Source: Methylotenera sp.
GTDB lineage: Bacteria > Pseudomonadota > Gammaproteobacteria > Burkholderiales > Methylophilaceae
Length of the DNA: 64,000 bases
Assembly (NCBI GenBank): GCA_030652995.1
Contig: JAUSAG010000024.1
Location: forward strand, 1 to 64,000
Direction of reading: 5' to 3'
Shown one piece after another: positions 17,004 through 26,869 of this stretch (its first letter is position 1; each line of letters starts with the position of its first letter). Position numbers and translations under genes: made by a program. Below the pieces are notes generated by a model. That model saw only the letters and a program-made list of their open reading frames with translations, was not told the origin of the DNA and ran no database searches.

Positions 17004-18551
17004 ATGCAAGAAAAATCAATTCCTGTTGTAGATCTTTTTGCGGGGCCAGGTGGCTTAGGCGAAGGCTTTTCTCGTAGCAATAATGGTCGCAACTTTGAAA
17101 TTATTGTTTCAGCTGAGATGGATCAATTTGCAGTAAAAACTTTGAGGCTGCGAGCTTTTTTTAGAATACTACAAAAGCAAGCAGAACATTTGCTTGAAGG
17201 CTATTACAGATTCTGTGCTGGTGAAAAGGTTAATTTCACTGAATATCCTTACCAAACTTATTGGGAACAGGCCTCTAATGAAGCTAGACAACTTACACTT
17301 GGGAATAGTGAGGATAACCGAACACTCGATGGAATACTTCGTGAGGCAAAAATAAGCTCACAAAAATCATGGGTACTAATAGGTGGCCCACCCTGCCAAG
17401 CTTATTCATTGGCAGGTAGAGCACGCAATAAACGTAACACTGACTACAAGCCTGAAGAAGATCATAGAAACTATCTCTATAAGGAATATCTTAGAATAAT
17501 CCATGATTATCGACCGGCTGTATTCGTCATGGAAAACGTTAAAGGTATTCTTTCTTCGAATGTTGATGGAAAGAAAATATTTCATAGTATTTTATTAGAT
17601 CTTTCTGACCCTGATGAAGCCATCAGTAAAAGCACGGGTGTTGGTTATAGGATTTGTTCTTTAGTTAATAATACTGTTTTCAAGAAAGGCATGAGCCCTG
17701 ATGAGATCGACCCTAAAGATTTCATTGTTAAAGCTGAGAATTACGGCCTACCCCAGGCTCGCCACCGTGTAATACTTCTTGGAATACGTGAAGATTTAGC
17801 TGTCATGCCCGAGGCGCTCCAAGAGTCGGCAAGAATATCTGTTAATGATGTAATTTCTGACTTACCAGCGTTGCGAAGTGGATTGAGTAAAGAGATGGAT
17901 ACTCAGGAGGCTTGGTCTTCCGCAGTTAATAACCATTTGCAGAATCTAATCAGTCTTAGCTCTCAAAAAGTAGAGCTTAAACAGCTCAATCTGACGCTAA
18001 AAGAGCTGCGAAAATCAGGCATTCCAAAGTTAAATAAAGGAGCCGTTAGTATAAGAAAGCATGAACAAGCTATAACTCCCAACAATGTGCTATCAGAGTG
18101 GTATTCTGATTCACAATTAAAAGCTTGGCTTAACCATGAGACGCGAGGGCATATGTCCAGCGACTTGCTACGATATTTTTATGTGGCCAGCTATGGAATA
18201 GCATATGGGCAATCCCCAAAAGGTCATAAAGAATTTGATCTTGAAGGTCTTAGCCCTAATCATAAGAATTGGAAGTCTGGAAACTTCTCAGATCGATTCA
18301 GAGTTCAGATTAACAATCGTCCATCGACAACAATTACTAGCCACATATCGAAAGATGGACATCAATTCATACATCCAGATCCACTACAGTGTAGAAGCCT
18401 TACGGTCAGAGAGGCTTCTAGGCTACAAACATTCCCTGACAATTACTTCTTTCAAGGAAATCGGACACAACAGTTCCATCAAGTTGGCAATGCAGTTCCA
18501 CCGTTATTAGCATATCAGATTGCTGGAATAGTTAAAAAACTCTTCAACTAG
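17004..18551 (+). CDS. DNA (cytosine-5) methyltransferase
   Basis: 515-aa C5-methyltransferase that would transfer methyl groups from S-adenosylmethionine to cytosine in a specific sequence. Motifs occur in canonical order: I VVDLFAGPGGLGEGFSR (about 7-23), IV GGPPCQAYSLAGR with the catalytic Cys (about 126-138), VI VFVMENVKG (about 173-181), VIII QARHRVILLGIR (about 250-261), then a long target-recognition region, IX REASRLQTFPD and X GNAVPP (about 495-500). It is longer than minimal enzymes such as M.HhaI, with a ~140-residue variable region and inserts near the N-terminus. It converges on the dptH-like gene with an 8-bp overlap of the ends (18544-18551). No standard restriction endonuclease gene lies beside it. 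I expect it to supply self-marking for the DptFGH-like operon (inference). Confidence 0.93.
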   Translation: MQEKSIPVVDLFAGPGGLGEGFSRSNNGRNFEIIVSAEMDQFAVKTLRLRAFFRILQKQAEHLLEGYYRFCAGEKVNFTEYPYQTYWEQASNEARQLTLGNSEDNRTLDGILREAKISSQKSWVLIGGPPCQAYSLAGRARNKRNTDYKPEEDHRNYLYKEYLRIIHDYRPAVFVMENVKGILSSNVDGKKIFHSILLDLSDPDEAISKSTGVGYRICSLVNNTVFKKGMSPDEIDPKDFIVKAENYGLPQARHRVILLGIREDLAVMPEALQESARISVNDVISDLPALRSGLSKEMDTQEAWSSAVNNHLQNLISLSSQKVELKQLNLTLKELRKSGIPKLNKGAVSIRKHEQAITPNNVLSEWYSDSQLKAWLNHETRGHMSSDLLRYFYVASYGIAYGQSPKGHKEFDLEGLSPNHKNWKSGNFSDRFRVQINNRPSTTITSHISKDGHQFIHPDPLQCRSLTVREASRLQTFPDNYFFQGNRTQQFHQVGNAVPPLLAYQIAGIVKKLFN

Positions 18552-24997: not shown

Positions 24998-26869
24998 TTA
25001 AGCGCCTCCACCCACTTGAATTACCCCACTATCAATTGAAACTGTGTACGACCTGCCTTTCATGAAAAGAATTATTTGACCGTATTCAGACAATCCACCT
25101 TCTGCGAGTCTTCCAAGAAAAGTTCTTATGCGACGAAGTTCATGAGAGTAAAAATCATCGGCTAGGTATCCCTTCGCAGCCCGAGCAAGACATTCAAAGG
25201 ATAGTAGATCAAGCTGTAAGTCACTTATACCTTTTTCTGGGTCGTCTACCCTGAGAACTACTTGGCGGTTTATCCAGTCAACTGACGAAGCAAGTGACCA
25301 TTGAATTTCCACCCCTTCAACTTCCCATGCAGACCTTCTAGACATTAATTTGATGGATTTTGATGGTATTCTTCTAGAAATAATTGCGGCATCAGAGGTG
25401 GCTCTACCAAAGGCAGGATCAACAAGGTTTAAATTTGTTTCAGTTCCGGACATTCGTAGCCCCTGGACGGTATGAAGGCCAGCCATAAGCATATTTTTTA
25501 GTTTAATCATTTTTTCAGCAGGAATGTCTTGGCTTATAATTTCGAGAAACTGACTCCCATAACTAAAGCCAAGTCTATTGAGTAGGCCACCTGAAGGATA
25601 ATTGTCATCAAAGAATGCGCGGCGGCGCAATGCTGTAACTACATTTAGCACCGCTTGAGACTCCCTATCTCTCTCTCCTTTACTTTTTGGATTACCGACA
25701 ATCTCATCAATTCCTCCAGAGGCATCAATGGTCTTTTTATTACCACTCAGCGTAATTTCAAATTTCAGGTCTAGCTGGTCAGGTTCAAATACATCACCAA
25801 TATTCAGTAGCTTTTCATCTAATGGTCTAAATGCTCTTTTGCCTGGATCCATTCTAAAAAAAGCCGAAAGAATAGGTATACCTTTAAGTAAGCGATCTTC
25901 AGGTAACGCTTCAGGCTTTTCGAACAGCAGATTGTAAAATGCATATCTGTTTTGCCAAATTTTAGAAGAAGCAGCTTGGCGATGAACATCAACGCAGCTC
26001 AAACCACCGGTGATAATATAGGCTAGCAACATAAGCATTTCACGAATAGTCACTACAAAACCTAAGCGTTCTATTGTCGATAGAAGCTCTTCTATTCTTA
26101 AAACTCTCTGGCTTGCTGTATCTTTTCCGTGACTGGCAAGAAGGGTTCTGTTCCAGAAAATTGGACACTTGTTAGCGTATTTGCAACTACCACAGGACTG
26201 ATTCCATCTTTTATCATCAGCAACCCACTTCTTGAATGCCAATTTAACCAAACTTTCTTTAGAGACTGAAGAATCTGAAACTGACTGATAATTTAAATTA
26301 ACTATATGCACTTCACTATCTATACTGCAACTTCCAGTACGGAAGGATTCTTGGAAAGTTTTAAAAATTTGATTGCAAATATTGCCTGATGAAGACTGAG
26401 ATATTACCGCCCTAAGGCGACCTTCGTTGGCACATACAATTGTTACAGATTCTGGATAACATGAAGTATTTTCGATGAATTCAGCCGCATCGTTTACATC
26501 AAGCTCAGAGAAATCTTTGTGAATCCTGAGCGGTTTTTTTCCAGATTCAGAATCAAGGGGAGGTATTGCAGATAATCCATTACATTCAGAAAGTAGTAAA
26601 TCTCTTGCCAATTGGCTTGGATACCCAAGATAGTCAGTTATTATTCTTCTGCATAAATGCGTTTTGCCGTGTCCCGCATCTCCAGTTAGTACAACAACTT
26701 TTGCTCCAGAATTTATGGTGTTTAATAAGTAGACTAAAGCTTGAGTTTTAAAATCTAGTGAGTCGTTGTCAGTCTGATATTCCTCGTAAATCTGCGCGTG
26801 AGATGGACTGAAGGGAAGGTGACGATTTAGTCGAGTAACGTGAGAGTTAACTTTGGGTTCTAATGCCAT
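24998..26869 (-). CDS. dptF: DptF-like P-loop ATPase
   Basis: 623 aa. Walker A is LTGDAGHGKTH (about residues 61-71), followed by SVTIVCANEGRLRAVI, a beta-strand plus NEG segment that I associate with DptF-type NTPases. A short cysteine motif CGSCKYANKC (about 225-235) could bind zinc or another metal. This is the first gene of the operon and probably the one that senses or recruits; in phosphorothioation systems DptF is an NTPase partner of DptG and DptH. The remainder shows no nuclease signature that I can see. A generic AAA-type defence ATPase is the alternative reading. Confidence 0.6.
   Translation of the reverse strand: MALEPKVNSHVTRLNRHLPFSPSHAQIYEEYQTDNDSLDFKTQALVYLLNTINSGAKVVVLTGDAGHGKTHLCRRIITDYLGYPSQLARDLLLSECNGLSAIPPLDSESGKKPLRIHKDFSELDVNDAAEFIENTSCYPESVTIVCANEGRLRAVISQSSSGNICNQIFKTFQESFRTGSCSIDSEVHIVNLNYQSVSDSSVSKESLVKLAFKKWVADDKRWNQSCGSCKYANKCPIFWNRTLLASHGKDTASQRVLRIEELLSTIERLGFVVTIREMLMLLAYIITGGLSCVDVHRQAASSKIWQNRYAFYNLLFEKPEALPEDRLLKGIPILSAFFRMDPGKRAFRPLDEKLLNIGDVFEPDQLDLKFEITLSGNKKTIDASGGIDEIVGNPKSKGERDRESQAVLNVVTALRRRAFFDDNYPSGGLLNRLGFSYGSQFLEIISQDIPAEKMIKLKNMLMAGLHTVQGLRMSGTETNLNLVDPAFGRATSDAAIISRRIPSKSIKLMSRRSAWEVEGVEIQWSLASSVDWINRQVVLRVDDPEKGISDLQLDLLSFECLARAAKGYLADDFYSHELRRIRTFLGRLAEGGLSEYGQIILFMKGRSYTVSIDSGVIQVGGGA

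Follow-up and report, generated by a model that had tools for sequence, protein, structure and literature searches.

We analysed a 64,000-nucleotide stretch of the Methylotenera sp. contig JAUSAG010000024.1 (positions 1 to 64,000; hereafter the window), and within it a four-gene locus at 17004-26869. This locus consists of a gene for a C5 cytosine DNA methyltransferase, on the forward strand, and three genes termed F, G and H, all on the reverse strand. The four open reading frames (ORFs) are uninterrupted. H and G share 4 bp and the gap between G and F is 2 bp; F, G and H are therefore read as one operon. The two units are convergent, with an 8-bp overlap between the stop of the methyltransferase and that of H. 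A matching four-gene set with the same layout is present at another locus (L020), with identities to the window of 45% for F, 45% for the methyltransferase and 47% for G. Since genes and layout are both repeated there, the arrangement is not a product of chance.

The methyltransferase (17004..18551, forward strand, 515 amino acids) is the proposed self-marking enzyme. It matches PF00145 with 171 bits, and its top PADLOC model is DrmMII (9.6e-94). Motifs I, IV (GGPPCQ), VI (ENV), VIII and X are present, assigned with patterns that we take to be those of C5 methyltransferases. This is the single PF00145 gene found in its own genome, an assembly of 2.66 Mb in 48 contigs that is 99.96% complete.

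In the operon, F (24998..26869, reverse strand, 623 amino acids) is a P-loop ATPase of the SspF family (PADLOC, 1e-46), with a Walker A motif at residues 63-70 that at least 95% of 44 F proteins share. G (23694..24995, reverse strand, 433 amino acids) belongs to the SspG family (PADLOC, 1.3e-16) and is modelled with a DndG fold. H (18544..23697, reverse strand, 1717 amino acids) belongs to the SspH family (PADLOC, 4.9e-91) and has a nuclease-like region followed, at the end of the protein, by an FtsK/SpoIIIE motor (PF01580, 1.3e-38). The translocase domain, residues 1458-1642 (18772..19326, reverse strand), matches the solved FtsK 2iuu in a phmmer search (9.5e-46). A first-pass annotation, made from the letters alone, had described a C5 methyltransferase converging on a three-gene operon, with a 1717-residue protein carrying an FtsK motor, and the ORFs, PF00145 and PF01580 confirm this description.

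The nuclease-like region of H, residues 985-1255 (19933..20745, reverse strand), is a candidate PD-(D/E)XK-like nuclease domain. It contains E1092, D1137, E1158-x-K1160 and Q1172, shared by at least 95% of 43 H proteins, a set that we take to be the residue pattern of PD-(D/E)XK nucleases. A model of the region (predicted local distance difference test score, pLDDT, of 85) places D1137 and E1158/K1160 on strands following a long helix. Furthermore, a profile of the region matches the H proteins of 10 out of 10 other tested FGH loci, with 57.9 to 5.4 bits, the weakest match corresponding to an E-value of 0.0056 in a set of only 10 proteins.

Survey of FGH loci and C5 linkage

The contigs of 84,980 species genomes were scanned with two peptide patterns from the alignment of the window F with the F of L020. 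L020 was known beforehand to carry a C5 methyltransferase, and the scan samples the branch around the window and L020; F relatives without the two patterns escape it, and loci were kept on F similarity alone. Of the 47 loci obtained, 42 are complete FGH loci, after exclusion of L071 (a duplicate from the genome that also carries L070) and of L041, L072, L073 and L075 (FGH incomplete). The excluded L041 does contain both a Vsr-like gene and a C5 methyltransferase. Actinobacteria account for about half of the 42 loci, and carriers are found in Pseudomonadota, Thermodesulfobacteriota, Verrucomicrobiota and Actinomycetota.

A C5 methyltransferase lies at most 1505 bp from the FGH genes in 38 of the 42 loci, with a flank of 3.4-10 kb per side in most. 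Both the methyltransferase and the Vsr profiles were derived from matches within these same loci. The methyltransferase gene is upstream and divergent in 17 loci, upstream and codirectional in 12, and downstream and convergent in 9. The genetic link between FGH and the C5 methyltransferase is thus well supported and independent of any single gene layout. After thinning by H identity, it is seen in 28 of 32 loci at 90% and 14 of 17 at 70%. Among the linked enzymes, 37 of 38 have the PC motif and 32 of 38 have all four motif patterns used. A Vsr-like gene is present in 29 of the 42 loci, five of them confirmed by Pfam.

As for the controls, the methyltransferase profile has no match in 12 other FGH-family loci (L016-L019, L021-L028), at least 1.5 kb being available on both sides in 9 of the 12. 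SspD is the partner in six of them and a mad2-like methyltransferase in three, and the last three, of which L017 and L025 are fragments, have an unknown partner. Likewise, there is no match in 20 ZorD-type loci over 375 kb; these were picked from 30 by score and contig extent and match the ZorD model, not all being proven Zorya. Fisher tests on the linkage give p values that are too small, the loci being related. The Mantel correlation between H and methyltransferase identities, taking for each locus the best phmmer methyltransferase and not the nearest, is 0.69 (38 rows) and 0.41 (15 non-actinobacterial rows). This co-phylogeny was given little weight as evidence, since the rows share ancestry.

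Two of the other FGH-family loci have distinct contents. L021 (6820-17851) has an F of 1377 amino acids and no match to the modification-gene queries within 20 kb. L023 (7907-20000) is of FGH type, with a mad2-like methyltransferase between G and H, and its H extends to the edge of the sequence analysed.

A quick maximum-likelihood tree was built from 46 H proteins, with seven further close actinobacterial rows left out. In it, one branch (Shimodaira-Hasegawa-like approximate likelihood ratio test, SH-aLRT, 97) sets the 32 C5-linked rows, together with the four loci that have no C5 gene beside FGH, apart from the rest. Five of the six phosphorothioate-linked rows are grouped (100), and all three adenine-type rows form a third group (100). 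The closest H to that of the window, by path, is from L030, whose C5 enzyme differs (28% identity). The tree gives no direction for the changes of mark.

Finally, we looked at phosphorothioate genes in the carriers. DndC (TIGR03183) was not found in the window's own genome, DndB, DndD and DndE not being searched. A true SspD was also not found there with the one SspD model used; a 19-bit match was rejected, as this gene has MnmA-type Pfam domains. At 1e-10, again with one model, SspD is found in 0 of the 42 carrier genomes. SspB and SspC, sought in the locus stretches only, have no match in L030-L076.

Proposed system and points against it

We consider it likely that the four genes form one restriction-modification-type system, in which 5-methylcytosine (m5C) serves as the self mark and FGH attacks DNA that lacks it. 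The C5 methyltransferase would methylate cytosines of the host genome. F, as ATPase, G, with its DndG-like fold, and H, with its nuclease-like region and FtsK motor, would assemble into a complex that loads on mark-free DNA, translocates, and cuts or nicks it, and methylated host DNA would escape. We infer m5C as the protecting mark, the FGH complex, the cutting by H and a phage or plasmid target by analogy with SspFGH (PMC8092258). The first-pass annotation had read the locus as a swapped module, with cytosine methylation in place of phosphorothioation. This interpretation is partly supported.

Several observations weigh against this system. To begin with, four of the 42 loci have no adjacent C5 gene (L031, L046, L049 and L055), and in the two from Nocardia (L049 and L055) it is missing despite 10 kb upstream. 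DndC matches at 1e-10 occur in 3 of the 42 carrier genomes, all among these four exceptions. Members of the methyltransferase family also occur apart from FGH, which is missing at 19 of 21 loci, and the linked gene of L038 (333 amino acids), without clear motifs I, IV and X, is a doubtful C5 enzyme. No Vsr match was found in the window. A fold search with the nuclease-like region of H gave no significant match, and both control sets come only from the window's phylum. In the H tree, the phosphorothioate-linked L026 pairs with L021, away from the other five; branches are long, and with 10 rows outside the C5 group the deep order is unsure.

The exceptions differ among themselves. The distance from the start of the locus to a contig end is 504 bp for L031 and 181 bp for L046, and each of the four genomes has a C5 gene on a separate contig. 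In the L031 genome this gene belongs to the FGH-linked type, scoring 659 bits against that of L035. About 0.5 kb separates it from the end of its 10-kb contig, a position compatible with an assembly break, although the contigs were not joined. The C5 enzymes of the L049 and L055 genomes are more distant, with 56 and 52 bits at best. DndC is over the cut-off in L055 and in L046, the latter with two stops, and below it in L031. This gives two of four exception genomes over the cut-off versus 0 of 38 others (Fisher 0.007, post hoc). Another self mark is possible at these four exceptions. In the L055 genome (Nocardia albiluteola), dndC (678.7 bits) is on another contig (L182), with no DptH-size ORF in the 20 kb around it.

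More tentatively, SspFGH-type complexes could be a mark-agnostic restriction engine, with one ancestral nuclease-translocase tuned in each lineage to phosphorothioate, adenine methylation or m5C. The m5C branch may sense the mark in a way that tolerates methyltransferase exchange, because the close FGH sets of the window and L030 have different C5 enzymes. Our results suggest that, over evolution, the FGH machine has been paired with several kinds of self mark. SspFGH and DndFGH have so far been studied as restriction arms for DNA with a sulfur-modified backbone. Should an entire FGH branch pair with m5C, the mark-reading part could be found by comparing branches, and self/non-self discrimination by large ATPase-nuclease complexes would become testable via part swaps. 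The nuclease-like region of H, aligned across the tested branches, is a target for mutation.

Alternative explanations and neighbouring genes

The methyltransferase, as an orphan or part of another system, and FGH, as a stand-alone effector, could be mere neighbours in a defence island. We find this unlikely. Zorya genes do adjoin the operon, most loci of the methyltransferase family have no FGH, and the methyltransferase is absent at 2 of 40 loci when the two contig-cut ones are set aside. However, a linkage within 1.5 kb that spans four phyla and three layouts, and that is not seen at any of the 20 ZorD-type or 12 other FGH-family loci, speaks against simple proximity, as does L030, where a different C5 enzyme fills the same role.

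Next, FGH could be a type IV-like effector triggered by foreign modified DNA, with a regulatory or competitive methyltransferase. McrBC is a case of m5C-dependent restriction, and the present evidence would fit either direction of the response to m5C. Nevertheless, this explanation is highly improbable, since FGH triggered by m5C would turn on the very host that makes this mark, unless the sites differ. Moreover, SspFGH, the characterised relative, is known to damage DNA that lacks its mark and to be toxic when the mark is missing (PMC8092258).

The least probable option is that FGH is a phosphorothioate-dependent SspFGH arm using SspBCD or DndBCDE encoded elsewhere in the genome: the SspF, SspG and SspH matches and the DndC matches of the exceptions, including the third below cut-off, agree with it, but the window's genome shows neither DndC nor a true SspD, and among the 42 carriers SspD is absent and DndC passes the cut-off in only two.

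In terms of neighbouring genes, the Zorya type I genes ZorA, ZorB, ZorC and ZorD (with an Mrr-like nuclease end) adjoin the FGH operon at 28888-37058 on the reverse strand. Their PADLOC matches are strong, and among NCBIfam models only one ZorA subfamily cut-off is reached. A primase-like gene with Toprim and DUF3987 lies at 40266-42656, and a tyrosine integrase (43926-45185) adjoins a tRNA-Met (45297-45373). Given this integrase beside tRNA-Met, the defence genes may be part of an integrative island; an attachment-site (att) repeat was looked for within the window and not found. Upstream of the methyltransferase, at 15823-16251 on the forward strand, is a PIN-domain protein (PF01850), a possible toxin of a toxin-antitoxin pair.

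Comparison with known systems

SspABCD-SspFGH shares with the window the three-gene F-G-H operon, the Walker A motif in F and the FtsK-like end of H, in addition to the SspF, SspG and SspH profile matches. The nuclease-like motif region of H also aligns with the H proteins of phosphorothioate-linked loci. In contrast, SspD was not found in the 42 carrier genomes, the window operon is beside a C5 methyltransferase, and its H stands in a different part of the tree.

For the DndABCDE-DndFGH and DptFGH systems, the sources were PMC10853773 and PMC12707154. In the former, DndFGH has a restriction endonuclease domain, DndH has a HerA/FtsK domain, and DndFGH is proposed to work as an independent effector that does its own sensing; SspFGH, SspF and SspH go unmentioned in its available text. 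The first-pass annotation had called the window operon DptFGH-like. The modelled DndG fold of G is shared with these systems, whereas the DptF and DptG sequence profiles of PADLOC have no match to window proteins, the DndH model matches H only weakly (2.3e-4, best stretch 1129-1520), and DndC was not found in the genome.

Restriction systems that combine a C5 methyltransferase, Vsr, a MORC/paraMORC GHKL ATPase and a helicase also exist (PMC2292703). The available text of PMC12839542 deals with HerA/FtsK-centred BREX-related systems and does not include SspFGH. We recognised no description of an SspFGH-type operon with a C5 methyltransferase in titles and abstract starts, subscription papers and preprints lying outside the search.

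PADLOC was run on nine window proteins, and the matches listed are the best 25 of 59 families for the methyltransferase and the best 25 of 43 for ZorD. The likeness to DISARM is limited to the methyltransferase, with DrmMII as its best model; DrmA, DrmB and DrmC are not among the matches listed.

Lastly, MADS (mad1-mad8) is a defence system with a methyltransferase, compared here through PADLOC models. The mad2 methyltransferase of the locus L024 is presumably of adenine type, in line with its NPPY motif. That locus has, besides mad2, a mad6 of 1379 amino acids with kinase-type matches; the window has neither, only mad8 of the mad1-mad8 set is among its matches listed, and the two belong to separate groups in the H tree. 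On the other hand, in MADS a methyltransferase is also paired with mad6-mad8, the mad8 model matches the window H (5.9e-25), and the mad7 of L024 also matches SspG (3.3e-9). Among the systems compared, MADS comes closest as a precedent for a partner based on base methylation.
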